Below the pieces are notes generated by a model. It saw only the letters and a program-made list of their open reading frames with translations, did not search any database and was not told where the DNA came from. Shown here in pieces: positions 6,058 through 44,261 of a stretch of 50,754 bases of DNA. The stretch is from Haloferax sp. Q22 (GTDB lineage: Archaea > Halobacteriota > Halobacteria > Halobacteriales > Haloferacaceae). The stretch lies in assembly GCF_001482285.1 (NCBI RefSeq), contig NZ_LOEP01000015.1:1-50754 (forward strand), read 5' to 3'. Each line of letters starts with the position of its first letter. The stretch's first letter is position 1. Made by a program: the position numbers and the translations under genes.

Positions 6058-6654
6058 ATGGACCAGACACCCGAAGCGTTCCGCACTGCGCTGTCGTCGG
6101 GTGACACCGAGCGCGTGAATCAGGCTATTGATGAGGTCGAGGACATGGACCTCGAGGAGCGAGCCGCGCTGTTCAACGACTGCTTCGAGCTGTGTCGTGG
6201 GCTGTACGAGAGCGATGACGGCTATCAACGGCAGTCCGTGATTCGCTTTGCGGCCGCGCTGTACCCACGACTTGGGATTCGGACGGTTGGAGCCGATATC
6301 ACCGACGAAGCGTTGCCGGGCGAGTGGACGCTCGACGACATCGCGACGCATCGTAACTGGCTTCGAGACTTCTATTTGGAGGCACTCGTCGACGACGACG
6401 GGCGCGTCCGACGAGCCGCCGCCAAGGCGCTCAAGGATCTGGCGCTGTCAGCCGAGATGATCGAGGCCGACGATGAACTTCAGACGATGGTCGAGGAGTT
6501 AGAGGCGCTTGCAGCGAAGCACGACGACGCCACACAGAAACATATCGAAGCGGCCTACGAGAACGTCGCTTTTCACGCAGAAAAGCCCGGGTCGTTGCTT
6601 CCTGACGGACTTCAAGAGGCACTTGCACAGGATCTGTCTCGCGGTGATCGGTGA
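6058..6654 (+). CDS. helical-repeat (HEAT-like) hypothetical protein
   Basis: 198-residue acidic, almost entirely helical protein. Segments such as WLRDFYLEALVDDDGRVRRAAAKALKDLAL (about residues 108-138) resemble a HEAT repeat, where paired helices are followed by an RRAAAKAL-type second helix. No catalytic motif or membrane segment is visible. It faces the end of the XPB-Bax1 block and stops about 100 bp before inverted-repeat copy 2. Proteins of this kind usually act as protein-binding scaffolds; its partner cannot be told from the sequence. Confidence 0.65.
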   Translation: MDQTPEAFRTALSSGDTERVNQAIDEVEDMDLEERAALFNDCFELCRGLYESDDGYQRQSVIRFAAALYPRLGIRTVGADITDEALPGEWTLDDIATHRNWLRDFYLEALVDDDGRVRRAAAKALKDLALSAEMIEADDELQTMVEELEALAAKHDDATQKHIEAAYENVAFHAEKPGSLLPDGLQEALAQDLSRGDR

Positions 6655-6752
6655 TTTACTCCTGGATTATGCTCTGTGGACTCGGCCTGCGCTCTCTATC
6701 GACGCTTCGGAATCGGTGGCGTGTTTGACGCAGTAGCCAATCCGCCGATGTA

Positions 6753-6793
6753 TTAACCAACACTGGCTGCCATTCGCTGCTGTTGTTGGTTAA
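6753..6793. repeat. TTAACCAACA inverted repeat, copy 2
   Basis: Arms at 6753-6762 and 6784-6793 match perfectly around a 21-bp centre. It sits between two convergent genes, and the right arm contains the stop codon of the CPBP protease gene (6790-6792). Confidence 0.9.
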
Positions 6794-7638
6794 GGCTCCG
6801 CGCAATCGGTTTCTTGCTCCGATTCGGTGATGGGATACGCGTACCCATGGAATCCAACCGTCGTCGCGACTCGCACACGCGTCGTCTCACCCGGTTCGAC
6901 GTCGGCGACGTGGAGTGTCTCGTCGGCCGGCGTAGACGCCCGATACAGGCCATCACGGTCCGGTTGCGGACATTGGTCGTCGACTGTCACGGTGTATTCT
7001 TCGCCTGGTGAGAACGAATGCTGCCAGCGCCGCCACCACTCCTCGCCGATGTCCACCGCTGTCGCCAGCAGATTGTTGCCTGCATGTACCAGGATCGCCA
7101 ACCACCAGAGCCCCACCAGCCACAGATACAGGCTCAGCAACCCGCTGACGAACACCGGCAGGGTTCCCCGGCGGTAGCGGCGTGGATTCCGGGTATGGAG
7201 GAACGCCCACAGGACGGACCCAGCGACCAACAGCGGAAGTTGAGCGACACCCAAGGTTACCGCCAGCAGATATGGGCCGCCGCGAAACGTGAGTTCCTCA
7301 ACCACCGGCGCGATCACGACGGCGCGGACGCCTCGTCGTGTTGTTCGACGCCACCACTTGCGTTCCCAGTCGAGTCGGTCCTTGAGATCCGCAATCGTGT
7401 ACGTCTCTGTCTCTCTCAAGTCGCCTTGGTGATCGCTGTCGAGCGACGCGAACCAGCCGAACGGATGCGTGCCTGTGAGTTTGACAGTCCAGTATTTGCA
7501 CCGGTGGATGGCGCGTTCGAGAACAAGGCTGGCGATAGTGAGTACGGCCCACGCTACAACGAGCCGTGCTGGGTAGACGACCTGTGTTCCCGTTATGGTC
7601 GGAGCCGAAATGCTCGGTCCGAATCCCATATCCAACAT
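6790..7638 (-). CDS. CPBP-family intramembrane metalloprotease
   Basis: Membrane protease of the CAAX-protease/bacteriocin-processing (CPBP, Abi) family. The diagnostic motifs are present: EELTFRG (EExxxR), WAFLHTRN (FxxxH) and ILVHAGNN (HxxxN), embedded in several hydrophobic segments. With the start at 7638 it is 282 aa; the ATG at 7629 is equally possible and the longer frame to 7701 is not needed. A TATA-like TATTTAT on the minus strand (about 7656-7662) lies 20-30 nt upstream of these starts, as for a leaderless gene. The C-terminal 80 residues form a hydrophilic beta-rich tail beyond the usual family core. The substrate is unknown. Confidence 0.85.
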   Translation of the reverse strand: MLDMGFGPSISAPTITGTQVVYPARLVVAWAVLTIASLVLERAIHRCKYWTVKLTGTHPFGWFASLDSDHQGDLRETETYTIADLKDRLDWERKWWRRTTRRGVRAVVIAPVVEELTFRGGPYLLAVTLGVAQLPLLVAGSVLWAFLHTRNPRRYRRGTLPVFVSGLLSLYLWLVGLWWLAILVHAGNNLLATAVDIGEEWWRRWQHSFSPGEEYTVTVDDQCPQPDRDGLYRASTPADETLHVADVEPGETTRVRVATTVGFHGYAYPITESEQETDCAEP

Positions 7639-7677
7639 AGTGCTACCGGATCTGATAAATACAGTGACTGAACCCCT

Positions 7678-7874
7678 CGAAAGCCCTCGGTCGCTCGGCA
7701 TCCCGCGACCACGGGAAGTCGGTCCTGCTCACTTCGTTGCGCGGGCTGCGACTTCCCTGCCTTCGTTCGCTGCGCTCACGAAGACCACGCTGCGCGCCTC
7801 GCTCCTTCGTCGCTCGGTGCTTGCGGGGTCGGGGGACGACCGAGCCGGCCTCGCCCTTTCTGAGCCCCCCAGGA
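7678..7874. repeat. GC-rich dispersed repeat, family A, copy 1
   Basis: It shares its two ends with 9838-9950. The left end is CGAAAGCCCTCGGTCGCTCG and the right end contains GCGGGGTCGGGGGACGACCG followed by CGCCCTTTCTGAG. The ends are partly complementary (GAAAGCCC against CCCTTTC), so it can fold. No gene is seen in 7639-8004 beyond this and repeat B. Confidence 0.65.
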
Positions 7875-16491: not shown

Positions 16492-16734
16492 ATGTGGTCA
16501 AACGAACCCCGGTCGCTGCCTGATTGGATCGAGGATGCCTACCAGATCCTCGTATCGGGGACGCCGGATCAGCAGACGGAGCTCTCGCACGACCAGGCCC
16601 AGAGCCTCCTGCTCGCCGCTGAGGAATTCCCAGCTGAACCGGCTGACGCGGAGTACGCTATCGAACGGCTGCTTGACTCCGGCTGGCTCTACGCGGTCGA
16701 TGGCGAGCTGCGGATCACTGATCCAGAGCGTTAA
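16492..16734 (+). CDS. small hypothetical protein, 80 aa
   Basis: 80-residue acidic protein (MWSNEPRSLPDWIEDAYQIL...ERLLDSGWLYAVDGELRITD). The arrangement of three helices followed by a short hairpin (AIERLLDSGWLYAVDGELRIT) resembles a minimal winged helix, but without a recognisable family. Its TAA stop (16732-16734) is part of the left arm of inverted-repeat copy 3, so gene and repeat are physically joined. Composition and codon use look coding. Confidence 0.6.
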   Translation: MWSNEPRSLPDWIEDAYQILVSGTPDQQTELSHDQAQSLLLAAEEFPAEPADAEYAIERLLDSGWLYAVDGELRITDPER

Positions 16735-16772
16735 CCAACATCCTACCTATTATCCCCGCTCCTGTTGGTTAA
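16731..16772. repeat. TTAACCAACA inverted repeat, copy 3
   Basis: Arms at 16731-16740 and 16763-16772, perfect over 10 bp, with a 22-bp centre. The left arm supplies the stop codon of the 80-aa gene. Confidence 0.9.
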
Positions 16773-17051: not shown

Positions 17052-18776
17052 TTACTCCGTCCCACGCTTCAGTGCTCGCTCAAGTTCGGTTTGCACAGTC
17101 TCAAAGCGGGCGATCAGGCCGCGCAGCCAGCCGTCGGGGACGACGACGATCGCCTCGCCGTCGTTGAGCCGTTCGAGGTCGCTTTCGACGATCGGATGGG
17201 TTTCGTCCTGGAGTTCCTGGCGGCCAACCGAGCGGCCGTCGCGGTCGTGGACGGGGACGGACCGGCGCTGTTCCTCGCGGCCGATCTGTGACTGGGCGTA
17301 CTCGACGCTCGCCGAATCGCCAACGCGCATGATGACTGATTGGACAAGACCACTCAACAGCGCGTTCGCCCGGTCTTTTCCATAGGTGTCGTGGAGTTGT
17401 GCGACCGACTGCACACCGAGCAAGAGTTGGGTGTTTCGGCCCCGGCCCGCGTTGATCAGGTCGCCAATCTTCCGGAGGCCGGGAAGGCGCGCGAACTCGT
17501 CGAGGACGAAGTACGTGTCTTGATCGTCTGCGAGTGCAAACCGTGCCGCCCAGTCGATGAAGAACCGAAACGCGGGTTGGACTGCGTCGCCCTCCGTAAT
17601 CGGGAAATCCAACAGCAACGTCCGTCCCTGGGGATCCTGCATATACTCTCGGATCGAGAACTCACCTGCCTCGGCGAAGTCGCCGCGGAACAGGTCAGCG
17701 ATGACTTGCTGGAAGTTCGCGTAGACGCCAGCCGCCTGTCGTTCCGAATCCGGATCGATTGCCGATGCCGCCGCGGTGAGATCCGAATGGTCTGTGAGCC
17801 GCTCGTGCATCTCTTGCTTATCCGTCGACTGGACGAACGCGACGAGGTCGGCGTTCGTCGGTGTCGTATCGCTTGCCTGGGCTTCTCGATGAAGATACGT
17901 CACGACGGCAACGAACAGCTGGCGGCCAGCTTGGCTGAAGAACTCCGCGCCATCTGTCTGGGGGAAGAGTGCGCGGCCGATTTCGTCGATATCGGCTTCC
18001 CGTTCGATTTCGGCGAAGAGATTCCAGTATTCGGTTGCGTCCGTCGACGAGAGGTAGATCATGTCCTCGTGCTCGTGGTCGTGTTCGAAGCTCTCCTGAT
18101 ATTCGCCTTTGTAGTCGAAGACGACGAACGGATCGTCAGTTCCAGCCTGCATCTGGTGGGTGAGGAGCTTGATCGTCTCCGTCTTCCCGGCGCCCGTTTC
18201 CCCGAGGACGAGAATCGACCGGTCCTTGCGGAGCGGAACAAATCGCGAGAGACTCATACGATCACTCGCTGCAGAGAGGCTTCGAAACGGGAGGACATAG
18301 TTCCCGTCATCGATAATTCGACGGAATTCACGCTCCGTATCCCAGGTCCGCAGTCGCTGGCCTGCATACACTGCGCTCCCGAGTGCGACGACGAAGCCAC
18401 CCACACGGAGCGGCGTGAACTGCTCGATGAGCGGCAGCGACATGGCGGTCAGATAGCCGGCCTGATGCAGGAAGACTTCAGCGATCTGTGCGAGCAGCAG
18501 GACGTGAAACGCCCAGAACAGCTGGAGGTGCGCTGGAAACAGTAGGACAGTGCCGACTGCGGCCACCAGATAGAACAGAGGGACGAGCCAGAGTGCGCGA
18601 CTCCGATGTAACCCATCGAATTTGAAGTCGTGGAAATTCGCGCGCTCGAGGATGGCATACACCCAGGGCAACAGCAGTGCAGCCGTCATCACGGCCGCGA
18701 TCTGGAAGAAGATCTCAACCTCGTCTTCTTGCCGGTAGTCCTTGCTCTGGGACTCGGAATCAGTATGTCTGCTCAC
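17052..18776 (-). CDS. VirD4/TraG-type coupling ATPase (T4CP)
   Basis: 574-residue membrane-anchored ATPase that in conjugation links the relaxase-DNA complex to the transfer channel. The N-terminal ~140 residues carry several hydrophobic segments (about 24-44, 62-80, 84-104 and 122-140). Walker A GETGAGKT is at about 192-199, followed by VVFDYKGEY. YFVLDEFARLPGL (Walker B) with NAGRGRNTQLLLGVQSVAQL are family signatures. The start ATG overlaps the stop of the relaxase gene by 4 bp (18773-18776), so the two are probably co-translated. No VirB4 or other channel genes lie in the window, so transfer may rely on a host or helper apparatus. Confidence 0.9.
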   Translation of the reverse strand: MSRHTDSESQSKDYRQEDEVEIFFQIAAVMTAALLLPWVYAILERANFHDFKFDGLHRSRALWLVPLFYLVAAVGTVLLFPAHLQLFWAFHVLLLAQIAEVFLHQAGYLTAMSLPLIEQFTPLRVGGFVVALGSAVYAGQRLRTWDTEREFRRIIDDGNYVLPFRSLSAASDRMSLSRFVPLRKDRSILVLGETGAGKTETIKLLTHQMQAGTDDPFVVFDYKGEYQESFEHDHEHEDMIYLSSTDATEYWNLFAEIEREADIDEIGRALFPQTDGAEFFSQAGRQLFVAVVTYLHREAQASDTTPTNADLVAFVQSTDKQEMHERLTDHSDLTAAASAIDPDSERQAAGVYANFQQVIADLFRGDFAEAGEFSIREYMQDPQGRTLLLDFPITEGDAVQPAFRFFIDWAARFALADDQDTYFVLDEFARLPGLRKIGDLINAGRGRNTQLLLGVQSVAQLHDTYGKDRANALLSGLVQSVIMRVGDSASVEYAQSQIGREEQRRSVPVHDRDGRSVGRQELQDETHPIVESDLERLNDGEAIVVVPDGWLRGLIARFETVQTELERALKRGTE

Positions 18777-19339
18777 GATTCAGGCCCCTGTGCTTGTGCC
18801 TGATCGGGTTCTGGGTCGGGATCTTGGTCGTGGTCCATGTCCCGATCAGATTCAGCTTCCAGTTCGTGTGTGGCGTCGTGCTGCAACGTCTGTTCGAACT
18901 GGTGGGAGAGATCCCTGGTGAGTTCGCGATGCTGGTCGTGGAACTGCTCTTGGGCGCGCTCGCGGAGCTGTTCGCAGTCCTCTTTGTCCATCCAGAGGTC
19001 GCGTTTCGTCCCCGTCAGTGCAACTTGGGCGTGTGGATGATCAGTATCGCGATGGATTGCATAACAGTACGTCGCTGTATTGCGGTCCTTGCAAAACTCG
19101 CTCATCACCTGCCGAGTGTACAGACTGAATTGGTCGTCGGAGAGGTCGGTGCCGTTTTCGGGTGAGATGATGACCTCTCGCTCGAACTCGTATTCCTCGG
19201 ACTTCTCGATGAACGCCTCGATCTCCTCGTCGGACATCTCCTCGCCAGCGCGGTTCTCAAGCCCCTTCTCCTTATCCAGATACTCGACGAGGTTCCGCGC
19301 ACCGTGCTCGCGATAGTTGGTGTCCGTGAAGACCTTCAT
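18773..19339 (-). CDS. compact HUH-type relaxase (mobilization endonuclease)
   Basis: 188-residue protein with the relaxase metal-binding motif HRDTDHPH (H96-x-D98-x2-H101-x-H103), equivalent to the HxDxxHxH motif III of MOB relaxases. A Tyr-containing N-terminus (TNYREHGARNLVEYLDKE; Y9 or Y20) could supply the DNA-attacking tyrosine. The tail is a charged, Asp/Gln-rich disordered region. It is far shorter than most bacterial relaxases and lacks a helicase or primase domain. It lies between an RHH accessory gene and a T4CP gene, each overlapping by 4 bp, which strongly supports the call. Which tyrosine is catalytic, and the nick site, are unknown. Confidence 0.8.
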   Translation of the reverse strand: MKVFTDTNYREHGARNLVEYLDKEKGLENRAGEEMSDEEIEAFIEKSEEYEFEREVIISPENGTDLSDDQFSLYTRQVMSEFCKDRNTATYCYAIHRDTDHPHAQVALTGTKRDLWMDKEDCEQLRERAQEQFHDQHRELTRDLSHQFEQTLQHDATHELEAESDRDMDHDQDPDPEPDQAQAQGPES

Positions 19340-19938
19340 CCGCGATCACTCCGAAGCTTATCGAAGAGATCGCTGCCATCGTCCTCATCGCTTTCAGCAT
19401 CGCCGGAGCCGTCTGTCGTCTCGTCGACGTCGTCCGGCGTGTCGTCGGTGGCCGCGTCAGGCGAGTCGGGCTCTTCATCGTTGGTGGGATGCTGCGTTGT
19501 GGACGACTCGGTCGTGGTTTCAGCACTCGCCTTCGTGGCCGACGTGTCCTCACCCACTTCTTGGATACTCGTCTCGAGATCTTGGCGCATCCGGCGAGCC
19601 CCAGTATCGAGTGCCTCTTGCCGGACGTGATCTGACCGATCCTGTTTCATCAGCTCGAAGTTGGCGATTGTGTAGGCGCCGAACTTCGCATTCATATCGC
19701 GGATTTCCTTGGCGGTCTCGACCATTTGCTCGGTGCCGACTGAGATGAGTTCTTGAATGCGTTCTTCAGCGCGCGCTTCTGAGGCAATCGCGTCTTGGGC
19801 GTCCTGCTGGAGCTGGCGGTCGATCATGTCGTTGATGACCCCGGACATGGAGGTGTCTTCCTCAGCGGCGCGCTGTTTGAGTTCGGCCTTGCGTTCGTCA
19901 GTGACGTACACCGTGATCTGCGTGTCGCGCCCACCCAT
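19336..19938 (-). CDS. RHH relaxosome accessory protein (MobC-like)
   Basis: 200 residues. The N-terminus (MGGRDTQITVYVTDERKAELKQRAAEEDTSMSGVINDMIDRQL) is a ribbon-helix-helix DNA-binding domain. It is followed by a long helical, probably coiled-coil middle (about 45-130) and an acidic disordered tail. Proteins of this form bind the transfer origin beside the relaxase and also repress the mob promoter. The frame extends to a GTG at 20055, but the extra 39 residues do not look like the domain, so the ATG at 19938 is used. Three CACATTGG repeats upstream are candidate binding sites. Confidence 0.78.
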   Translation of the reverse strand: MGGRDTQITVYVTDERKAELKQRAAEEDTSMSGVINDMIDRQLQQDAQDAIASEARAEERIQELISVGTEQMVETAKEIRDMNAKFGAYTIANFELMKQDRSDHVRQEALDTGARRMRQDLETSIQEVGEDTSATKASAETTTESSTTQHPTNDEEPDSPDAATDDTPDDVDETTDGSGDAESDEDDGSDLFDKLRSDRG

Positions 19939-20052
19939 TTCAGACGCTCCGAGCGAGACTCGCCGTGGTTGGTGTGAGCGATGCGATGGGGAAATCGGCA
20001 GTCGGTGGATGCGGAAGGCCGGTGTGTGGCGGTAGAGGGCAAGCCAAAGCTG

Positions 20053-20125
20053 CACATTGGTCTGTGAAAAATCGCTGGACGGCAGTTTGTGGAGACCACA
20101 TTGGCTGTATCTACTCCCACATTGG
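20053..20125. repeat. three CACATTGG direct repeats upstream of the mob operon
   Basis: CACATTGG occurs at 20053-20060, 20097-20104 and 20118-20125, spaced 44 and 21 bp, close to whole helical turns. They lie in the otherwise gene-free 19939-20366 between the mob operon and vapBC, where an origin of transfer and the operator for the RHH protein would be expected. Both roles are inferred. Confidence 0.45.
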
Positions 20126-20217: not shown

Positions 20218-20258
20218 TTAACCAACAAACAGCCGATACAATCGGACTCGTTGGTTAA
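20218..20258. repeat. TTAACCAACA inverted repeat, copy 4
   Basis: Arms at 20218-20226 and 20250-20258 match over 9 bp (the innermost pair is mismatched), with total length 41 bp as in the other copies. It is the only copy between divergent genes (mob operon and vapBC). Confidence 0.85.
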
Positions 20259-32422: not shown

Positions 32423-32842
32423 CTACGCGTGGTCAGTAAACCACTCGGGCGCGCCCGTGTACTCTGCCCAGCAGTGCTTGTGGCACGGCTCTCCACGAGG
32501 GTTCGGAATCGCTCGTTCGAGATCGACCTGCTCGCCGCACAGGTCACACTCGGCGCTGTGGCCGTGCATCCGGGCGTCGTTTGAGAGGTCCTTCACCTCA
32601 ATGTAGAGTTCGTGGAGCGAGCGCGGCGTCAGCCGAACGAGGACTTTCTCGCGGTCGTCTTCATCTCGCTGCTCCGGCGTGTACGTCAGCACCCAGTCTT
32701 GCCCTTCCTCGCCGTCGCCGCCCGGTCCGAGCGAGATCGTCTGCGCGAGTTCGTCCGGAACGTAGTGCCACTCATTACCTCTAAACCGGGGATAGTGCCC
32801 GTTTGGTCGCGGGTTCTCGGGGTCGACGTCGTCTTCGGTCAT
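32423..32842 (-). CDS. hypothetical protein with C-terminal zinc motif
   Basis: 139 residues. The N-terminal 90 are hydrophilic with beta-type stretches (DWVLTYTPEQ, KVLVRLTPRSLHELYIEVKDL). The C-terminus has a CDLC...CHKHC four-ligand cluster (about residues 98-126), consistent with a zinc finger. It starts within the stop of the tyrosine recombinase gene (ATGA overlap 32839-32842), so it is probably co-expressed with it and could be a DNA-binding helper. No family name can be assigned. Confidence 0.7.
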   Translation of the reverse strand: MTEDDVDPENPRPNGHYPRFRGNEWHYVPDELAQTISLGPGGDGEEGQDWVLTYTPEQRDEDDREKVLVRLTPRSLHELYIEVKDLSNDARMHGHSAECDLCGEQVDLERAIPNPRGEPCHKHCWAEYTGAPEWFTDHA

Positions 32843-33444
32843 GCGAGCCCGGCCTCCTCGAAGGCGTCGTTGACGACGTCGGCCGTCGGGGCATTGAGAT
32901 ATGGTTCAATAGCCTGGAAGCTATCCCAACCGCCGACGGCCATCACGACGCGAGGATTCATCTGGCGGTCGACGAGGAGGCGTTGCGCGAAGCGGCGGCG
33001 GAGATCGTGAGAACTCACGTACTGGTAGTCATCGTCGCCGGTTTCGGCGGCCGCACGCTCGGCCGTGCGCTTCACGACGTCGCGGATACCGCGCTCGGTG
33101 AGATCAATCAATAAATCGTCTGGCGCTATATCTTCGGCAGTCTGGTAGCGGTGAACGTCCCCCTCGACGTCCGCGGGGAGGTAGGCATCACGGGGCTTGC
33201 CGCCGTTCCCGGTCGTGTCCTTTCCCTCTGGTACCCGGAGTCGGTAGTGATCGCCGTCCGGCGTGCGTTTCACGTGCTCCGGGCGGATTTGCGGGATTTC
33301 GAAGGCTCGGAGGCCGACGTAGCCACCGAGCTGAATGATGAGATCGTCGCGATGGTTCGCAGCGGCCCGCCGCAGCTCCTCGAGTTCGGCGTCGGTCATC
33401 CAGACCTTGTATTCGTCCTGCTTTGCGGTCGCTTCCAGTCGCAT
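32839..33444 (-). CDS. tyrosine recombinase, catalytic-domain-only
   Basis: 201-residue phage-integrase-type recombinase. The catalytic set is visible: Arg in GLRAFEI, Lys in PEGKDTTGN, SHDLRRRF (H-x-x-R) and the nucleophile Tyr in WDSFQAIEPYLNAP. It lacks the large N-terminal core-binding domain of XerC/D, a short form known among haloarchaeal plasmid and virus integrases. It could integrate the plasmid, resolve dimers, or act on the dispersed inverted repeats; none of these is shown. A coupled zinc protein follows. Confidence 0.85.
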   Translation of the reverse strand: MRLEATAKQDEYKVWMTDAELEELRRAAANHRDDLIIQLGGYVGLRAFEIPQIRPEHVKRTPDGDHYRLRVPEGKDTTGNGGKPRDAYLPADVEGDVHRYQTAEDIAPDDLLIDLTERGIRDVVKRTAERAAAETGDDDYQYVSSHDLRRRFAQRLLVDRQMNPRVVMAVGGWDSFQAIEPYLNAPTADVVNDAFEEAGLA

Positions 33445-33890: not shown

Positions 33891-36800
33891 ATGCAAACGG
33901 CACTCACCTACCGCACGAATCGCGACCTGTTCTCCAACTACTACCTTGACGAGCACCTCCCCGAGACGGAAGCGTGGGATGAACTCAGCGAGGCCGACCT
34001 TCGCGACGCCAAGGCGGACATCATGGACCTCTGGGAGCGCGAGAAGGACACGGCCTCGAAGCGCAACGAATCCCAGCTCGAGGAGAAGTTCATCCGACCG
34101 ATGTTCCGGAAGCTGGGCATCCCCTTCGAGGTCGAGGAGAGCACCAGTCGGACCCAGCGACGCCCTGACTACGGGTTCTTCGAATCCGAGGATGCCGCCC
34201 GTGGTGCGTTCGAGCGCCGCGAGGAAGGAGGCGATTTCTACAAGGACGCCGTCGCCGTCGCGGACGCCAAGCGCTGGGGTCGGCCACTCGACACCCGAGG
34301 GAGTGGGGAACACGAGCGGGACTTCGAGAACCCGAGCTACCAGATTCACGTCTACCTGCAGGAGACGCCGGCGCGGTGGGCCGTGCTCACCGACGGGAAG
34401 AAGTGGCGGCTCTATTACGGTCCGACGAGCCACCGCCTCGACTCCTACTACGAGATCGACCTGCCGACCGTTCTCGAAAAGGGCGATCTTGAGGACTTCA
34501 AATACTTCTACCTCTTCTTCAGGCACGGCGCATTCCTCGAGGACTCCAGCGGCGAGTGCTTCCTCGACGAGGTCTACGACGAGTCCAACGTCTTCGCCCA
34601 GGAGTTGGGAGCGGACCTCCAAGACAACATCTACGAGGCGATCAAGGTGCTCTCGGAGGGGTTCATGCAATACCCCGACAACGACCTCTCCGAGGACGAT
34701 CTCGACCTCATTCACGACAGTTCGCTCATCTACCTCTACCGGCTCATCTTCGTGCTCTATGCCGAGAGTGAGGGCCGTGACCTGCTCGATACGAACAACG
34801 AGATCTACGAGGGGTCCTACAGTCTGAATACGCTCAAGCAGGACGTCGCTGAAGAACTCGACAGCCCGAATCCGAAGTATCGGGACTGGCAAGACAACCT
34901 CTGGGACCGACTGGACGAGCTGTTCAAGCTCATCGATCAGGGCAGCAAGTCGCGGGGTATCCCGGAGGAGGACCTCTATATTCCGGCGTACAACGGTGGG
35001 CTGTTCAGAACTGACCCGGACGAGGACGACAGCGGCGAAGCCCGGTTCCTCGCGAACCACCAGGTCGGGGACGCCTACCTCGCTGAGGTCATCGAACTGC
35101 TCACCCGGAGTCAGAACGGCAACGGCGGTGGGAAGATCTTCGTCGACTACTCGTCGCTGGACGTCCGCCACCTCGGAAGCATCTACGAAGGGCTTCTCGA
35201 GTACCAGCTCGACGTCGCCGACGAACCGCTCGCACTGGAAGATGGTGAGTACGTCCCCGCCGGCGAGGATGACGAGGTGATTGTCGAGGAGGGAGAAGTC
35301 CACCTTTCGACTGGCTCTGGTGAGCGGAAAGCGACGGGGTCGTACTACACGCCGGAGTACGTTGTGGAGTACATTGTGGAGGAGACGCTCGAACCCCTCG
35401 TCACGGACATCCGGAACGACCTCATGGCACAGAGTGCCCGGGGAGAGCGTGGATTTGCAGCGGAATTCGCAGATCGAATATTCGATTTGAAAATTCTCGA
35501 TCCGGCAATGGGGAGTGGTCACTTCCTCACTAGTGCAATCGACTACTTGGCTCGCGAGATCATAGACGCCCAAGAAAAGCAGGCCGCACAGCAGGGGATT
35601 GAGACCGTCGACGAAGATCACGACATCAACTGGGCCCGTCGGCAGGTCGCTCAGCGCTGTATCTACGGCGTCGACCTGAACCCATTGGCCGTCGAGCTCG
35701 CGAAGGTGTCGCTCTGGCTCCGGACCCTCGCAGCCGAACAACCGCTCGCCTTCTTGGATCACCACCTGAAGACAGGAAATTCGCTTGTTGGGAGTGATAT
35801 TGAGGAGATTGAGGAATTAGAATCGGAAGGTGGGGGCGATGGTCAAAATGCATCGCTGGCCGATTTCGGTGTTGCCCGGAAAGGTACAATTGAGCAACTG
35901 ATGCGAATATATGAGGACTTCATCGCAATTGAGAACCAGGATCTTGCTGATGTCAAGGAGATGGAATCAAAATATGACGAGTTCGAACGGAACAAACTAC
36001 GGCAGCGTCTTGAGGCTATGGCCAATGTTCGAACTGCACGTGACTTTGGCTTAGATAATCTTCCTGATGACGTATTTGAGGATATGGCTGCTGCATTGGA
36101 AGACGATAGAAAATGGGGGGAGATTGCAGAAACCGACTGGTTCAAAGCAGCCCAAAAATGGGCCGGTGACTCTCAGTATTTCCACTGGAAATTAGAATTC
36201 CCTGAGGTGTTCTATACTATCGGCGGCGATCAGAAAAGTCAGGGTGGCTTTGACGCGATAATAGGAAATCCTCCATATATTATATTCAAGATGCTTTCTG
36301 ATGACATTCGTGATTATTATAGAGATAACTTTGACACTTTCAAAATGAAGGGCGATGTCTACGTTCTATTTATGGAACTTGCATCCGATCTTCTACGTGA
36401 TAACGGCTTTACTGGGTATATTGTTCAAAATAAGTTCACAAAGGCAAAGTATGGTTCAAATCTCAGAGATAAATTGTCCTCTCGAGAGACTGTAAGAGAG
36501 ATCATTGATTTCCACGATTCTCCGGTGTTTGAAATTACTGCGTATCCAATGATTGTCCTCCGTCAGAAAGCAGATCCACCTGCTGATCACAAATTCACAT
36601 GGCGAGATATTCGAGAGTCTGAGCAAAAGTCTATTGAGCGCTCTCTCAAGTCTGACGAAACTGGCTGGGAAATCACCCAATCCGATCTTGGAACGGATGT
36701 CTGGCACCCATTCGTTTCTGATGATGTTGTAGCTGCAGACACTGTTCCTGTTGAGGAATTTGCTGACCAAATTGGTCAGGGGGCGATTCCTGGAAATACA

Positions 36801-38162
36801 GAAGTGTATATTGTTGATGAGGAAACTGTAGAGGAGTATGATCTTGAACAGGAATATGTAAAGCGAGTTCTCAGAGGGGGGGACGTGAAGCAATTCGTTA
36901 TGGAATCACCCGAGAATCTCTCACAGCTTATCTATCCATATGATGTCATAAATGGCGAGCCGGAACTGGCGGATCCTGAACAGATACCGAATATTATCTC
37001 CTATCTTGAGAATTTCAAATCAGATCTTGTTGAGAGGAAAAACTATGGCGAAAGGTTAGTTGATCAGGGGTATGAATGGTATGAACTGCGATATGAAGCC
37101 CCGGGAATGCTTAATGAAAAGATCGCATTCCCAGATATCTCCCCAGAAAATAGATTTGCCTTCGATCAAAATGGGGAATTTGCGTGTTTAGACACAGTCT
37201 ATTATGCTGTTAGAGGTAATTCTCTCCCGTCATATGATAGCCGCTACCTTACGGCGGTACTCAACAGTAATCTATTGGATTATCTCTTTGATCGGATGTC
37301 GCCGAAAGTTCGGGGAGGATATAGGCGATATAAGACTCAGTACGTCGAGAGCCTTCCAATACCCGCGATTGACTTCACCGACCGGCATCAAGATACTACA
37401 GATTCTACTGACCAAATCGAGACTGTCTGTAAAGAAGTCTATGAAGGAGATCTAGGAGCAGAAGATGCGCTAAAACAGATCTCCTCGGATAGAGAAAACA
37501 AATTCGTACTCCATGATACTCTGTGTCATCTTGCAGATTTAATCTCCAATCTTAAGAAAGAGAGGCGGAACTATAATCTCAATCTTCTTGACTATCTGGG
37601 GTCTTATGATGACGGAGAGAAGCTTCGGGAATTCTCTGGATATCAACCGGCTAGTGGGGTTTCTGAAACGATTCTTTCGGAAACAACTGAAACAAGAGAT
37701 AATCTCAGAATTGGAGGTGTCAAGATATCCCGGTCAAACCTCAAAGTGACAATAGAGGCTTCTGCACGATACAAACCTGAGGATCCAGAAGATTATGAGA
37801 CAGATCGTTGGGGCTATACTGAGACTGACCATTATCCGGTTATGGAATTTGTTGGAATTGATGAATTACAGTCTGATTTGTTGGTTGAATTTGTAGATTA
37901 TGCAACGAATGAGGGTGATGGTTTTGCTGGGTTCCGAGAGACAGCCACCAAAAGGAACTCTCTGGTTGATAGACTGGGTGAGATAATCATGCCCTCTCTA
38001 CAAGATGTTGAATCTGATCTTGAAATATATCTTGACCAGAAAGAAAGTGTAAGAGAATTAGACGCGAGGCATGACCGCCTTTTCAAATTCCTAAACCGGA
38101 TCGTCTATGAGCTATACGAGCTTGAAGAGGAGAAAATCGAAATGGTGGAAAGCACCCGATAG
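33891..38162 (+). CDS. nuclease-adenine methyltransferase fusion (type IIG / DrmMI-like)
   Basis: 1423-residue restriction-modification protein. An N-terminal PD-(D/E)xK-like domain reads IRPMFRKLGIPFEVEE, RRPDYGF (D93) and AVADAKRW (D125, K127), resembling HsdR-type nucleases. The Eco57I-class N6-adenine methyltransferase follows: TGSYYTPEYVVEYIVEE (about 480), DPAMGSGHF (537-545) and NPPY (793-796), then a recognition region (about 900-1400). Its SNF2-helicase neighbour, 6 bp downstream, makes the DrmMI-DrmD pair of class 1 DISARM the closest known arrangement, but drmA, drmB and drmC are absent. From about 35770 to the stop the DNA is much richer in A+T than the first half of the gene. Confidence 0.87.
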   Translation: MQTALTYRTNRDLFSNYYLDEHLPETEAWDELSEADLRDAKADIMDLWEREKDTASKRNESQLEEKFIRPMFRKLGIPFEVEESTSRTQRRPDYGFFESEDAARGAFERREEGGDFYKDAVAVADAKRWGRPLDTRGSGEHERDFENPSYQIHVYLQETPARWAVLTDGKKWRLYYGPTSHRLDSYYEIDLPTVLEKGDLEDFKYFYLFFRHGAFLEDSSGECFLDEVYDESNVFAQELGADLQDNIYEAIKVLSEGFMQYPDNDLSEDDLDLIHDSSLIYLYRLIFVLYAESEGRDLLDTNNEIYEGSYSLNTLKQDVAEELDSPNPKYRDWQDNLWDRLDELFKLIDQGSKSRGIPEEDLYIPAYNGGLFRTDPDEDDSGEARFLANHQVGDAYLAEVIELLTRSQNGNGGGKIFVDYSSLDVRHLGSIYEGLLEYQLDVADEPLALEDGEYVPAGEDDEVIVEEGEVHLSTGSGERKATGSYYTPEYVVEYIVEETLEPLVTDIRNDLMAQSARGERGFAAEFADRIFDLKILDPAMGSGHFLTSAIDYLAREIIDAQEKQAAQQGIETVDEDHDINWARRQVAQRCIYGVDLNPLAVELAKVSLWLRTLAAEQPLAFLDHHLKTGNSLVGSDIEEIEELESEGGGDGQNASLADFGVARKGTIEQLMRIYEDFIAIENQDLADVKEMESKYDEFERNKLRQRLEAMANVRTARDFGLDNLPDDVFEDMAAALEDDRKWGEIAETDWFKAAQKWAGDSQYFHWKLEFPEVFYTIGGDQKSQGGFDAIIGNPPYIIFKMLSDDIRDYYRDNFDTFKMKGDVYVLFMELASDLLRDNGFTGYIVQNKFTKAKYGSNLRDKLSSRETVREIIDFHDSPVFEITAYPMIVLRQKADPPADHKFTWRDIRESEQKSIERSLKSDETGWEITQSDLGTDVWHPFVSDDVVAADTVPVEEFADQIGQGAIPGNTEVYIVDEETVEEYDLEQEYVKRVLRGGDVKQFVMESPENLSQLIYPYDVINGEPELADPEQIPNIISYLENFKSDLVERKNYGERLVDQGYEWYELRYEAPGMLNEKIAFPDISPENRFAFDQNGEFACLDTVYYAVRGNSLPSYDSRYLTAVLNSNLLDYLFDRMSPKVRGGYRRYKTQYVESLPIPAIDFTDRHQDTTDSTDQIETVCKEVYEGDLGAEDALKQISSDRENKFVLHDTLCHLADLISNLKKERRNYNLNLLDYLGSYDDGEKLREFSGYQPASGVSETILSETTETRDNLRIGGVKISRSNLKVTIEASARYKPEDPEDYETDRWGYTETDHYPVMEFVGIDELQSDLLVEFVDYATNEGDGFAGFRETATKRNSLVDRLGEIIMPSLQDVESDLEIYLDQKESVRELDARHDRLFKFLNRIVYELYELEEEKIEMVESTR

Positions 38163-38168
38163 CAGTCG

Positions 38169-41135
38169 ATGAGTGGTTACAAAGTCGGCGACCACATCAA
38201 GTTCGCCGGCGGGCGTGGAGAAATCACTAAAATCGAGGAACGGCCCAACGGCGGGCACCTCCTCCACGTCTACACCTCGGAGGGCCAGCTCCGCAAACTC
38301 CCCAGCGGCCTCCCTCACATCGAGAAACTCGATTCGCTTGTCGACCGGCTCGCAGCCGGCCAATCCGACGCCCCGCTCCATTACGATCTTCGGGAGCGGG
38401 CGATCCGACTCGATCTCGCCTACAAGTACGACCGATTCCTCTCGCTGACCAGCAACCGCATCGAGATCGAACCCTATCAAGTCCAAGCCGCCTACGAGAT
38501 CCTCAACTCCTACGACCACCGCTACCTCATCGGCGACGAAGTTGGCCTCGGGAAGACCATCGAAGCTGGCATCGTCATCGAGGAGCTCATCGCACGCGAC
38601 CGGGCCGACCGGGTGCTCATCGTTGCGCCGGCGCCGCTGACCGTCCAGTGGCAGGAGGAAATGCGCGAGAAGTTCGACCGCAACTTCGTCATCTACGACC
38701 GCGAAACCGTCCGGACCCACCGGAAATCCCACCCCAACCAGAACGTCTGGAAACAGGAAGACCTCATCATCACCTCCATCGATTTCGCGAAGCAGACGAC
38801 GGACGACCCCGAGTCGGACCGCGTTTCCGTCCTCGATGCCCTCCAGAATCTCGACGAGGAGTGGGACGTCGCGGTCTTCGACGAGGCTCACCACCTTACG
38901 GCCAGACGGTCGAGTGACGACTCCATCGAACGAACACAGCGATACCAGGTCGGCGAGGCGGTCGCCGACAACTCCGATTCGCTCCTGCTGCTCACCGGGA
39001 CCCCACACAAGGGGAAATCAGACCAGTTCTACTTCCTCGTGAGTCTGCTCGATCCGTACCGCTTCAGCCACGAATCACAGATCAGCCCTGACGCGCTTGA
39101 GGACCTGATGATCCGGCGGCTGAAGGATGATATGTACGAGACCGACGGGACCCGAATGTTCCCCGAGAAGAACATCGAGGCACTCCCAGTCGAGATGACT
39201 CGCGAGGAGCGGAAGCTGTACGACGATGTCACCGAGTACATCCGCGAGTACTACAACCTCGCCCAGCAGGAGGAGAACCAGGCGGCGGGGTTCACGATGG
39301 TCATCTACCAGAAGCGGCTGGTCTCGAGTATCTACGCGATCCGGAAGTCCCTTGAAAACCGGATGCGGGCGATTCAGAACGACGCCGTCGCAGAAGACCT
39401 CCCTGACGAGGTTCAGGACCTCATTCCGCGGTATAGTACCGAACCCGAGACGCTCACCGACGCAGAACGCGCTCGGGTCGAGGAGGCGCTTGAGACGGTC
39501 ACGATTACGCTCAATCAGTCGCAAGTCCAGCAGGAACTGGACCGCGTCAAACAGCTCTGGCAGCAAGCTAAGAACATCGAGACCGACTCGAAAGCCCGAC
39601 TGCTTCGCCAGTTCGTCGATCGCATTCTCTCCGATGACCCCGACGAGAAGATCCTGATCTTCACCGAGTACACGGACACGCTGGAGTACCTGCGTGACGA
39701 GGTGTTCCCCGAGCACGATATCGCGCAGGTGTACGGCGATCTCGACCAGGATCGTCGACGAGAGGAGATGGAGAAGTTCGAACAGGAGGCGAACCTGATG
39801 CTCGCGACCGACGCCGCCCAGGAGGGGCTCAACCTCCAGTTCGCTCACATCATGGTGAACTACGACCTGCCGTGGAATCCCATCCGCATCGACCAGCGAA
39901 TGGGGCGACTCCACCGCTACGGCCAAGAACATACCGTCGAGATCCGCAACCTCTTCTTCGCCAACACCCGCGAGAGCGAGATTTTGAATCTCCTCATCGA
40001 GAAGACCAACCAGATCGAGTCTGACCTCGGGATGCGCTCGGACGTGCTCGGTCGCGTGTTGGAAGACGTCGACCTCGATAAAACCATCATGGCGGCCATT
40101 GCCGAGGGCCAGCCGACCGAGGAGGTCGTTGCCGACGTTGAGGCGACGATCGAAGAGCGCAAGGAAGCGATCCAGACCGTCGAAGACGACTTCCTCATCC
40201 GAGACAGGTTCGACCTCTCGGGCGAAGACGACGAGATTCTGGACGTCATCGAGCGGAGCCAACACGGCGAGGTGTCCGAGAACGATATCGAGACGCTCGT
40301 TCGGGTGTTCTTCGACGAGTTCGGTGGTTTGATCACGGGCGTCCGCCCCGGTCCCGCACGGACGGACGGCGACGTGTTCCAACTCGACGTCCCCGATGTA
40401 CTGAATGGCAGTCATGTCCACCGCCGCTACGAACGGGCAACGTTCACCAAAGAGATCGCCATTGTGGAGGACGACATCGAGTTTATCTCGCTCGATCATC
40501 CACTCGTCCAATCACTCATTGAGTTTTGCCTGGACTCGGAGCGAGTCCAAGGCCAGGTAGCAACGAAAGTGGCTGCGAGCGCTGATCGTGCGCCGGGCAT
40601 CCTCTTCAATTACCGACTCGGCTACGTCTCAGGGGCCGGAGACGTAGTGACCGAAAAGTTCGTTCCACTCTATGCCACGCTAGACGAGTCAATTATGACG
40701 GAGGTTCCGGAGTTCGTGGAGACGATGCCACCGGAAGATGCAGCGTCCCATCCGGATTGTGAACAGCTCGCTGCAGTGGTTGACGACCTCCATCAGGCGG
40801 CCGAGATGGAGGCCTGGACGCAGGTAGAATCATTTGCTCAGGAAGCTCGCTGCGAGCGTGAACGCGAAATCGAGATCAAGCGTGAACACGCCGAGCGTTA
40901 CTTCGCCGAGCAAATCGAGGAATGGGAGGAGCGCCTCGAAACGTACCAGCAGCGTGCAGAGCAGGGGCGGGACATGTCCGCCCCGATTGGGAATGCAAAA
41001 CAGAAACTCGAGAGTCTCCGTCGTGAGCGCGAAGCGGAGCTTGCGCAACTCGACGAGGAGCAACACGTCACGCCGGAAGAGCCCGACCTGGTGACCGCAG
41101 CGTTTGTCGTTCCATCGCCGCAGGTGGGCAACTGA
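38169..41135 (+). CDS. SNF2-family helicase (DrmD-like)
   Basis: 988-residue SNF2/Rad54-type ATPase. An N-terminal KOW-like beta segment (KVGDHIKFAGGRGEITKIEE) precedes the motor: GDEVGLGKT (122-130), DEAH (238-241), a motif III-type LLLTGTPHKGKSDQF, and the second lobe with AAQEGLNLQFA and DQRMGRLHRYGQ. The C-terminal third is helical, with a coiled-coil-like EEWEERLETYQQRAEQ. It should translocate on duplex DNA and work with the upstream methyltransferase-nuclease. Its TGA stop shares a base with the ATG of the tbp gene. Confidence 0.9.
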   Translation: MSGYKVGDHIKFAGGRGEITKIEERPNGGHLLHVYTSEGQLRKLPSGLPHIEKLDSLVDRLAAGQSDAPLHYDLRERAIRLDLAYKYDRFLSLTSNRIEIEPYQVQAAYEILNSYDHRYLIGDEVGLGKTIEAGIVIEELIARDRADRVLIVAPAPLTVQWQEEMREKFDRNFVIYDRETVRTHRKSHPNQNVWKQEDLIITSIDFAKQTTDDPESDRVSVLDALQNLDEEWDVAVFDEAHHLTARRSSDDSIERTQRYQVGEAVADNSDSLLLLTGTPHKGKSDQFYFLVSLLDPYRFSHESQISPDALEDLMIRRLKDDMYETDGTRMFPEKNIEALPVEMTREERKLYDDVTEYIREYYNLAQQEENQAAGFTMVIYQKRLVSSIYAIRKSLENRMRAIQNDAVAEDLPDEVQDLIPRYSTEPETLTDAERARVEEALETVTITLNQSQVQQELDRVKQLWQQAKNIETDSKARLLRQFVDRILSDDPDEKILIFTEYTDTLEYLRDEVFPEHDIAQVYGDLDQDRRREEMEKFEQEANLMLATDAAQEGLNLQFAHIMVNYDLPWNPIRIDQRMGRLHRYGQEHTVEIRNLFFANTRESEILNLLIEKTNQIESDLGMRSDVLGRVLEDVDLDKTIMAAIAEGQPTEEVVADVEATIEERKEAIQTVEDDFLIRDRFDLSGEDDEILDVIERSQHGEVSENDIETLVRVFFDEFGGLITGVRPGPARTDGDVFQLDVPDVLNGSHVHRRYERATFTKEIAIVEDDIEFISLDHPLVQSLIEFCLDSERVQGQVATKVAASADRAPGILFNYRLGYVSGAGDVVTEKFVPLYATLDESIMTEVPEFVETMPPEDAASHPDCEQLAAVVDDLHQAAEMEAWTQVESFAQEARCEREREIEIKREHAERYFAEQIEEWEERLETYQQRAEQGRDMSAPIGNAKQKLESLRREREAELAQLDEEQHVTPEEPDLVTAAFVVPSPQVGN

Positions 41136-41703: not shown

Positions 41704-41744
41704 TTAACCAACAGAATCTGTGTATCGCGATTATTGTTGGTTAA
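41704..41744. repeat. TTAACCAACA inverted repeat, copy 5
   Basis: Arms at 41704-41713 and 41735-41744, perfect and extendable by one base pair on the outside, with a 21-bp centre. It lies between tbp and the unknown gene at 41834, both read rightward. Confidence 0.9.
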
Positions 41745-41833
41745 CTGCCGCCAGTTAGCCGAAGCGTTGCAGGAGGTCAATTTCGAGAAGGGCTGAGCCG
41801 AGAGGTTTTCCCGCGATACGACCAAGGACTACC

Positions 41834-42817
41834 ATGCCCTTTACCGCGAGCTGGCGGACGCTCCTCGACGAGTGTGAGGAGCTCGCCGCGGATGCGACGC
41901 TCATCACGCCTCTCTCGGAGACGCGATTCCGCATCACCGACACCCAGGAGCACCGCATCAATATCGAGTTCGTCGATTCGGGTGACCCGCAACCACTGCA
42001 ACGCGAGCAGTTCGAAACGCTGGCCGAACGAATCACTGACGCTGGCGGCACCTTCGAACTCCAGCGACTCCCACCGGACGCCGAACCGTACGCGGCAGTA
42101 CTCAGCCTGCATCCCCGCTACGAGATCGACGACCGCGAGGGTACGCTCACAGAAACCGACGAGCCGACGACATCCCAACTAATCAAAGGAGCCACTACCC
42201 AGTCCGCCGACGACCAGGATGACGCCGCAGACCGCACCGAGCCAGATCTCGATGTCTACGCTGATATGCTGTTGCTGATCGACGCCCTCGAACGCCACGA
42301 TCCAACCGCACTCGAGGACTGTGAGACGCCCGTGCTCATCAATCTCTATACGTTGCTGTCGGACGTCCAGCGCAACGCTGGCGACCTTCGCCAGGACGTG
42401 CGTGAGGTACTCCTTGGGCGGCTCCACCATGACCAGCCGGTCCACGGTCAGTACGGCTCCGTCCAGCGGACGAGTCGGCGCAATCGCTCGCTGAAAGACG
42501 ACGACGAAGTCATCGGTGTGCTCGAAGATGCGGGCATCCCTCGCGAGCGGATCATGGCCGTCGACCGCGAGAAGGTCGACGACGCCTTGGACGTGACCGA
42601 CCTCTCCGAATCGGCTGTCTACGAGATCGAAGCAAGTGAGTACGTCCGGAAGGCCGACGTCGACGAGGAGCACAAGGAAACGCGGCTCCAAGGGCTGAAA
42701 GATCAGCTTGCGCTGAGCGACGATCCCGATGCCGAGAAGCTTCGTCAGGAAGTCGACGAGCTTGAGCAGCGTATCGAGGAGCTGACCGAGTTCAAACCTG
42801 GCACCGATATCAGGTGA
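41834..42817 (+). CDS. hypothetical protein with C-terminal coiled coil
   Basis: 327 residues, acidic. The N-terminal ~100 residues form an alpha/beta unit (MPFTASWRTLLDECEELA...FRITDTQEHRINIEFVD...). A Gln/Asp-rich linker (about 115-135) is followed by a helical middle (VYADMLLLIDALERHDPTAL...). The C-terminus contains helix-turn-helix-like VIGVLEDAGIPRERI and a coiled coil LRQEVDELEQRIEELTEF. No family is recognised. It is the only gene enclosed between inverted-repeat copies 5 and 6, giving it the look of a single-gene unit, and it precedes parA. Confidence 0.7.
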   Translation: MPFTASWRTLLDECEELAADATLITPLSETRFRITDTQEHRINIEFVDSGDPQPLQREQFETLAERITDAGGTFELQRLPPDAEPYAAVLSLHPRYEIDDREGTLTETDEPTTSQLIKGATTQSADDQDDAADRTEPDLDVYADMLLLIDALERHDPTALEDCETPVLINLYTLLSDVQRNAGDLRQDVREVLLGRLHHDQPVHGQYGSVQRTSRRNRSLKDDDEVIGVLEDAGIPRERIMAVDREKVDDALDVTDLSESAVYEIEASEYVRKADVDEEHKETRLQGLKDQLALSDDPDAEKLRQEVDELEQRIEELTEFKPGTDIR

Positions 42818-42845
42818 CCACACGAACTGATTTTTCTGATCCGGA

Positions 42846-42885
42846 TTAACCAACAAACCGGACGGAGCGGGAAGATGTTGGTTAA
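42846..42885. repeat. TTAACCAACA inverted repeat, copy 6
   Basis: Arms at 42846-42855 and 42876-42885, extendable to 12 bp on each side (GATTAACCAACA against TGTTGGTTAATC), with a 20-bp centre. It is the most symmetrical copy and lies 29 bp after the previous stop, upstream of the par operon. Confidence 0.92.
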
Positions 42886-42940
42886 TCGCCTTGCTCAGAA
42901 GACGTGCAGAGTCAAAGCGCGTAGATGAGATACAATGTAG

Positions 42941-43003
42941 TCAATGAGATCATTGACGTCGTTGAGAGAGTATAGTTTATATGACCTCATTGAATTCATT
43001 GAG
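42941..43003 (+). promoter_or_regulatory. par operon promoter and TCATTGA operator repeats
   Basis: TCAATGAGATCATTGA (42941-42956) is an inverted repeat with a 2-bp centre. TCATTGA occurs twice more in direct order at 42987-43002. Between them GTTTATAT (about 42975-42982) is a TATA box 27 nt before the parA ATG. Repeats in front of parA are commonly the operator and/or centromere-like site for the partner DNA-binding protein. Confidence 0.65.
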
Positions 43004-43005
43004 AT

Positions 43006-43776
43006 ATGTCTACATCGACGAAACACGTCGCAGTGTCGAACCAGAAGGGTGGAGTCGGCAAAACCATGGTTGCCATCAATCTCGCTGGTGCACTTAACCA
43101 GCGAGGCCATACCGTCCTCTTCGTCGACGTCGACCCACAAGGAAACGCCACTGAAGGCCTTGGCCTCTCCGAGGTCTATGAAGAGCCTGAACCGAACCTC
43201 CGATCAGTACTCGTCTCACAAGACACAGCGTTATCCGAGATCATCGAGACACATCCCGAGATGGATCTCGTTCCTTCAAATATCGATCTGTTCAAAGGCG
43301 AAGCCGAACTCGTCACCGAGATGCAAGGACGCAAACGGCTCCAGCGGGCCGTCGCCGATGTCGGCGGGGGCTACGACTTCGTCATTTATGACTGTCCCCC
43401 CTCACTCCTCGTCTTGACTGACAGCGCGCTCCTTGCTGCACAGAACGTTCTCATTCCCGCCCTTGCAGAATCTACGTCAACCCGCGCGCTCGATATTCTC
43501 TTTGATCAAATCGACACGCTCGAGGCCGAGTATGAGACATCAATCACCGAGCAGGCGATCGTTGCGAACCGTGTCGAACCCGATGGCGAAGCCGAAGAGA
43601 TGATGACGTGGTTTCAGGAAACCTTTGAGCCGGGGCTACCCATCTTCGAGATACGGAAGCGTGTCGTCCTCAAGCGGGCGTGGAGTAATGGAGTCTCAGT
43701 GTTCGAACATACCGAAGACTGTGATATGGAAGGCGAGTTCGACCAGCTCGCTGCCCATCTGGAGGACGCCCTATGA
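43006..43776 (+). CDS. parA: ParA-family partition ATPase
   Basis: 256-residue Walker-type ATPase for plasmid segregation. The deviant Walker A NQKGGVGKT is at residues about 10-18, followed by LFVDVDPQGNATEGLG and VIYDCPPSLLVLTDSAL (switch and Walker B regions). There is no N-terminal helix-turn-helix, so it belongs with the small ParA proteins, and DNA recognition must come from the gene downstream. The stop overlaps the next start by 4 bp (43773-43776). Confidence 0.92.
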   Translation: MSTSTKHVAVSNQKGGVGKTMVAINLAGALNQRGHTVLFVDVDPQGNATEGLGLSEVYEEPEPNLRSVLVSQDTALSEIIETHPEMDLVPSNIDLFKGEAELVTEMQGRKRLQRAVADVGGGYDFVIYDCPPSLLVLTDSALLAAQNVLIPALAESTSTRALDILFDQIDTLEAEYETSITEQAIVANRVEPDGEAEEMMTWFQETFEPGLPIFEIRKRVVLKRAWSNGVSVFEHTEDCDMEGEFDQLAAHLEDAL

Positions 43777-44261
43777 CTGACGATAAGAAGACGGATCGGC
43801 AAAACCGTATGAGTGAACGCTTCGGTAGCAGAGCCGAGCAGAGTGAGTCCGTAGAGGATGAAGAGACAGAGACTGAGGAGGTACTCAACAACGACAACGA
43901 AGTCAATGACGTGAATGAGATCAATGAGACAGTTGAATCAGACAAATCTACAACGTCCTCAACGACATCAAAAACATCATCTACCTCAACGACATCATCA
44001 GAGTCAATGGATTCATCGACATCATCTGATTCAAAGACAGTTCGTGAGACGAAGGCACGGACATTCTACCTTGGAACGGATCGTTTGAAGCGGTTAGACC
44101 GGCTCTACAAAGAGATGTCGTTAGAGTACGAAATCGAGTTTGAAGAAGATCTCCCGAAAAATGATGCGTTCTACGGTGCAGTAATCGACGCCGTCTGTAA
44201 CCGGACGACAATAGAAGAGGAGCTCGGACTGACAGACGACACAGAAGAAGAATCGACGTAG
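43773..44261 (+). CDS. partition partner protein (RHH-like, ParB-equivalent)
   Basis: 162 residues. The first ~90 are disordered, rich in Glu, Asn, Ser and Thr, encoded by low-complexity DNA (repeated ACATCAxxA-type codons). The C-terminal ~65 (RTFYLGTDRLKRLDRLYKEMSLEYEIEF...AFYGAVIDAVCNRT) look like a ribbon-helix-helix DNA-binding and dimerisation domain. Position and coupling to parA make it the centromere-binding protein. TCAATGA-type motifs like those in the promoter recur inside its own coding sequence (43903-43927). Confidence 0.75.
   Translation: MTDDKKTDRQNRMSERFGSRAEQSESVEDEETETEEVLNNDNEVNDVNEINETVESDKSTTSSTTSKTSSTSTTSSESMDSSTSSDSKTVRETKARTFYLGTDRLKRLDRLYKEMSLEYEIEFEEDLPKNDAFYGAVIDAVCNRTTIEEELGLTDDTEEEST
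43903..43927. repeat. TCAATGA-type motifs inside the partition partner gene
   Basis: TCAATGA (43903-43909) and TGAATGAGATCAATGA (43912-43927) resemble the promoter element TCAATGAGATCATTGA at 42941-42956. They may be extra binding sites for the partner protein, or follow from the Asn/Glu-rich coding sequence. Confidence 0.4.

Follow-up and report, generated by a model that had tools for sequence, protein, structure and literature searches.

The window analyzed here is a whole contig of Haloferax sp. Q22 (NZ_LOEP01000015.1; 50,754 nucleotides) with a 90-bp overlap between its two ends, from which we take it to be a circular plasmid of about 50.66 kb. This plasmid carries six copies of an inverted-repeat site, TTAACCAACA-N(20-22)-TGTTGGTTAA, all of them sharing the arm TTAACCAACA with the exception of one arm of copy 4, in which the final A is replaced by G. 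The arm 9-mer is found 12 times in the window, against 0.05 occurrences expected from shuffles. The sites, the genes next to them, and an integrase-type ORF are the following:

2529-2570: site 1, between the convergent genes for Orc1/Cdc6 (908-2431, + strand) and a DUF790 protein (2673-4031, - strand)
6753-6793: site 2, whose right arm overlaps the stop codon of the minus-strand ORF 6790-7701
16731-16772: site 3, whose left arm overlaps the stop codon of ORF 16492-16734
20218-20258: site 4, with one arm reading TTAACCAACG (ending in ACG, not ACA), upstream of a NikA-like gene (19336-20055, - strand) that precedes a MobA-like relaxase gene
32839-33444: Phage_integrase ORF, 201 aa
41135-41683, + strand: TATA-binding protein (TBP), 182 aa (PF00352, 2e-45), left neighbor of the 327-aa gene
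41704-41744: site 5, 20 bp past the TBP stop codon and 89 bp ahead of the 327-aa ORF
41834-42817, + strand: 327-aa protein, from a family common on haloarchaeal plasmids
42846-42885: site 6, 28 bp past the stop codon of the 327-aa ORF, different from the 3' site of most relatives
43006-43776, + strand: ParA-like ATPase (PF13614, 6e-45), right neighbor of the 327-aa gene

A preliminary description of this DNA had presented the 327-aa gene as the only one between copies 5 and 6, with TBP upstream and ParA downstream, and had drawn attention to copy 3, which overlaps a stop codon. All of this was confirmed, including the position of both copies and the 89 bp separating the left one from the ATG, but the gap on the right is 28 bp and not 29 bp. 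Immediately upstream of the TBP gene, the stretch 33891-41135 encodes an Eco57I-type methyltransferase and an SNF2-like helicase, with DrmMI and BrxHII as top PADLOC matches of the pair, followed by HmaA and DrmD, and it is likely to be a defense island adjoining the repeat-bracketed gene. The minus strand holds a mobilization module at 17052-20055, formed by a TraD-like coupling protein, a 188-aa MobA/VirD2-like relaxase, and a NikA-like/RHH protein; despite this module, the plasmid records carrying the 327-aa family were all typed as non-mobilizable (69/69).

The geometry of the site is nearly invariant. Measured between 9-mers, the spacing in 250 distinct sites is 23 (110 sites), 24 (99), 22 (20), or 25 (14), with other values in the remaining 7, and arm pairs less than 100 bp apart in other layouts amount to one head-to-tail and two divergent cases. 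Five shuffled arms used as a control gave 0 or 1 matches apiece. Among 340 near-sites in the loci analyzed, a set biased by the retrieval of most loci with the exact pattern, 284 are perfect and the changes fall mainly on the innermost and outermost base of the arm; compensated changes are seen only at these two bases, with none at core arm positions 2-9. Beyond the arms, the sole conservation is a weak GTC ahead of the left arm. The spacers are variable and their positions lie near background composition, so the conserved interior between terminal repeats that would identify a MITE or small mobile repeat is missing.

Each of the six window copies folds as DNA better than 200 out of 200 shuffles (z between -3.7 and -6.7), and site 4 adjoins the mobilization genes, both of which favor the sites being signals that form hairpins in RNA or single-stranded DNA, such as a terminator, a single-strand promoter, or a transfer or replication signal. 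Nevertheless, we regard this explanation as highly improbable, since a core arm free of compensated changes means that it is the sequence, and not the pairing, that is conserved, which speaks for recognition of the duplex. The fixed spacing and the absence of orientation bias, described below, count against hairpins as well.

The exact 10+10 site is present in 239 of 392 Halobacteriales genomes, and the reversed pattern in none of the 392. The genome of the window has 14 sites (9+9 arms) on three of its 56 contigs, namely the window itself, contig C13 (five sites), and contig C24. Genome contigs gave at least 119 site stretches, nearly all from Halobacteria among the 80 matches listed, and viral contigs gave 50. 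Exact sites outside Halobacteria appeared, among those matches, in two MAG records (L125 and L163) labelled Omnitrophica and Tritonobacter. Site density, taken from site spacing on seven contig pieces, is roughly one per 6-15 kb. Closed genomes have chromosomal sites too: contig C1 of genome G151 has six in about 81 kb, ending beside a gene of fam0, a plasmid protein family discussed below, and this region is read as an integrated plasmid. If the overall reading given below is right, the site would also provide a simple sequence mark for plasmid-derived DNA integrated into chromosomes. No published description of the site was found in the openly available literature searched, which included passages of PMC3119063, and none of the listed literature matches to the arm 9-mers or 10-mers was haloarchaeal by title.

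With respect to the surrounding genes, called with a home-made caller on 185 contigs, the sites are mostly intergenic and show no orientation bias. Out of 242 distinct sites, 136 lie in tandem gaps, 43 in divergent gaps, 42 in convergent gaps, and 21 inside called ORFs, against a null in which intergenic gaps of at least 41 bp split 62/19/19% into tandem, convergent, and divergent. Thus, the site is neither a plain promoter element nor a plain 3'-end element. The stop codon of a neighbor falls inside the facing arm in 21 of 274 sites.

The 327-aa protein, without a match in Pfam, NCBIfam, PADLOC, or PDB, belongs to a family present in 69 plasmid records and in 163 of 293 genomes. The preliminary description proposed looking for this gene elsewhere bounded by the same repeats, and in the 30 loci read the outcome depends on relatedness: all eight loci with at least 86% amino acid identity, the window included, adjoin a site, but none of the 22 with 77% or less has one inside the flank read. 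These close relatives occupy at least three neighborhoods, between TBP and ParA in the window, with a Cu-ATPase and TFB in H. noricense, and beside XPB-DUF790 in contig C13 of the window's own genome. The left site lies at -130 from the gene in the window and in L247, L248, L251, and L255, and is degenerate in L246 and L254; the 3' site lies at +1025 in most relatives and at +1012 in the window and in L248, a locus with the complete window arrangement (94.9% over 6,079 bp). The right-hand copy of the window is 28 bp from the stop codon instead of the usual 41 bp or so, and its spacer differs too. When the window is compared with the H. noricense locus (L247), homology on the left begins precisely at the outer edge of the repeat (-130/-131), beyond which there is TBP in the former and the Cu-ATPase gene region in the latter, and on the right it ends at 974-982, which is the stop codon, 30 bp before the site. 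From these two edges, the left site is part of the module of the 327-aa gene and the right one apparently not. In C13, an 89% identical paralogue stands tail to tail with XPB-DUF790 with one site between them; the XPB-DUF790 of the window faces Orc1 across one site, and the equivalent junction of C13 has the 327-aa gene in place of Orc1, the DUF790-side flank being homologous up to the arm.

This behavior brings up the possibility that the sites are module recombination sites, where an enzyme would join DNA at the arms, so that site-bounded modules are inserted, lost, or exchanged, the 327-aa gene being one such cassette. The reading of the locus as a gene cassette is partly borne out, as relatives sit beside other neighbors with sites and a one-gene insert exists elsewhere, but the break in homology on the right falls at the stop codon rather than at the site. 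Many other genes are flanked by the repeats, and the clearest example of the layout proposed in the preliminary description is a one-gene insertion that can be set against an empty allele with a single site: L120 has the order f65, site, f66, site, f5, compared with f65, site, f5 in L124 and L198, and f66 has other partners in L160 and in contig C6 of G161. Moreover, 9 of 235 distinct junction sites keep a fixed distance to both neighbors, each of which is found elsewhere with a site there and a different partner; junctions anchored on at least one side number 99 of 235. A site is kept beside a gene with a changed neighbor in 33% of cases per family side, for which a rough base rate is given by 252 site junctions in 1,636 gaps. 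Recombination at the sites would be a possible explanation for the single sites common to exchanged modules.

Other observations weaken this explanation. Averaged per family side and with fam0 excluded, synteny is broken in two-site gaps little more often than in site-free gaps (0.75 vs 0.63 at 70-80% identity, 0.55 vs 0.52 at 80-90%, and 0.40 vs 0.36 above 90%); the larger raw excess at two-site gaps came mostly from fam0 and a few families and was discarded. Near sites, BLAST ends cluster on the outer edge as well as on the inner edge of the near arm, but this pile-up was rejected as proof of crossover at the arms because conserved arms attract alignment ends. A seemingly clean before-and-after deletion at the fam10-fam2 locus was likewise dismissed, as the second site of C24 comes with a fam10-like left flank of its own, which its spacer tracks. 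The spacers are unrelated and offer no shared overlap, unlike Xer sites, one comparison puts the homology break about 16 bp outside the site, and no site-linked recombinase turned up, although the search was not systematic. We regard recombination at the arms as a less likely alternative.

Comparison with known recombination sites points in the same direction. The core sites of integron attC are RYYYAAC and GTTRRRY, and attC arms contain AAC/GTT. The haloarchaeal sites resemble attC in having conserved arms around a variable middle, but their arms miss the core consensus, AACCAAC and GTTGGTT each being off at one position; this agrees with the preliminary description, which had called them loosely similar but not matching. 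Its likeness to cassettes with a recombination site at the 3' end does not hold, since a site may be found before or after a gene, in no preferred orientation. In Acinetobacter plasmids, the pdif/dif sites, short and with inverted arms, border modules shuffled between plasmids; the spacers that recombined had been identical in previous cases, and one tolerated mismatch is reported (PMC13141974). However, pdif has distinct XerC and XerD arms 6 bp apart, while the haloarchaeal site has two identical arms, separated by 20-22 bp in the window, and its spacers are unrelated.

The standout of the neighbor analysis is fam0, a family of plasmid proteins of about 107 aa without a match in Pfam or NCBIfam and without a convincing one in PDB. 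The 185 contigs contain 35 members, 34 of which have a site just upstream. To guard against circularity, loci were picked by protein (E<1e-35), and 18 of 19 distinct loci have a site whose end lies 4-17 bp upstream of the ATG (L302 is the exception; L299 and L279 are counted as one). Seven of eight weaker relatives have no upstream site; the eighth, L310, shows in the same place a degenerate site, TTAACCAACC...AATTGGTTAA, possibly a co-evolved variant. Over the 392 genomes, site and fam0 occur together in 186, the site only in 53, fam0 only in 5, and neither in 148, an odds ratio of 104, compared with two control families from the same pool of plasmids, DUF6610, itself often beside a site (10.7; 392 genomes), and the 327-aa family (2.9; 293 genomes). 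This association is partly circular, since the presence of fam0 nearly guarantees one site by construction; less so is the dose effect, with fam0 in all 51 genomes with at least ten sites, in 53 of 55 with six to nine, and in 5 of 153 with none. In the placements listed, which cover part of the 15 genomes queried, the closed genome G095 has four site-bearing contigs, each with one fam0 gene adjoining a site (two of them also read at the sequence level), and contig C4 of G348 has three sites and no fam0. Counting against fam0 as the binder, strong members are missing from 53 of the 239 site-bearing genomes, and a single relative was found in the viral collection against 50 site stretches. Likewise, neither the window (six sites) nor C13 (five) encodes fam0, the copies of this genome being located on C24 and, diverged, on C53. 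Orc1/Cdc6 types are frequent near fam0.

An AlphaFold model of modest confidence (pLDDT 76, pTM 0.44) predicts for fam0 a helical hairpin (helices 14-22 and 25-54), an acidic linker, and a three-stranded sheet (strands 73-79, 82-91, and 94-103). Some integrases have arm domains that contact DNA with three-stranded sheets of such size. The best Foldseek hit had an E value of 0.57, with no fold match backing DNA binding. The partner of ParA (43773-44261) was also considered as the site binder and rejected, having a relative on just one other site contig.

The position of the fam0 site, at about -55 to -14, together with sites placed 0-20 bp upstream of the T-rich element and GC-rich palindrome that precede f5, f66, and f21, would suit sites that act in transcription only, as operators or as upstream elements of plasmid promoters, and take no part in segregation or recombination. 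Still, we find it unlikely that this is all the sites do: the 42 convergent-gap sites, whose proportion matches that of such gaps in the null, fit poorly with promoter control, which also counts against the reading that follows, and some sites keep a nearly fixed distance after a stop codon, as in fam10 (8-13 bp in 10 of 11 loci, 4 bp in the other one).

The observed sites, with their geometry, their distribution, the module edges, and the association with fam0, are best read, with a probability of roughly 0.55, as a plasmid-wide class of binding sites acting as fam0 operators and/or distributed centromeres. We infer that fam0 binds them and thereby takes part in repression or autoregulation, in segregation, or in silencing. 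The site would be read as double-stranded DNA, its two 10-bp inverted arms lying about three helical turns apart, and a fam0 dimer with two flexibly tethered sheets could contact both arms while tolerating a change of ±1 in spacing. Because the site covers the core promoter of fam0, the protein putatively represses its own gene, and it would also bind the sites spread over the plasmids of the cell. Such an action in trans between plasmids is suggested by the window plasmid, which keeps intact sites without encoding fam0. Modules retain their edge site on changing neighbors, and the 327-aa gene is accordingly one of many found beside such sites. A more elaborate variant, a system of module exchange among haloarchaeal plasmids, seems doubtful to us. 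In it, the scattered 41-bp sites of different plasmids would be paired by a small DNA-binding protein under its own regulation, and not by an Xer or IntI enzyme reading a shared overlap; single genes would then be inserted or lost precisely from site to site even though the spacers are unrelated, and the sites would double as operators or centromeres.

For the reading as operators and/or centromeres, the nearest kinds of system are already known. The O_B sites of RK2 are scattered over the plasmid, and the haloarchaeal sites are similarly scattered through the intergenic DNA of one replicon. The phage-plasmid N15 has several inverted-repeat centromere sites far apart on one replicon, as here, but its protein family differs and the haloarchaeal role in segregation is putative. 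In the KorB/O_B system of the IncP plasmid RK2, one protein controls several genes through operator sites, also at a distance (PMC11790492). KorB is, however, a CTP-dependent sliding clamp, whereas fam0 has no such Pfam domain, its lack of Pfam and NCBIfam matches placing it outside the ParB/KorB family, and its site is two-armed with three turns between the arms. If our reading is right, a large share of haloarchaea have plasmids with a common and undescribed site-protein system, whose site is near-invariant and whose candidate protein is amenable to testing in a standard host. This would then have implications for the maintenance or control of archaeal plasmids that lack an obvious ParB, and for the reasons why their gene content is so mosaic.

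Three minor features adjoin these elements. Short repeats of the TCAATGA/TCATTGA type, unrelated to the inverted-repeat sites, lie immediately 5' of parA (42933-42990) and are perhaps its own operator or centromere. Next to site 1, at 2580-2620 on the minus strand, there is the sequence ACGAGGGGTGTTCACTGGAAA, presumably ORB-like, which is kept beside DUF790 in C13, L249, and L252. Finally, at about 6580-6720 of locus L286 (contig C53), the site upstream of the diverged fam0 gene seems to be interrupted by a small insertion whose inverted ends read GGTCTTTTCAGG.
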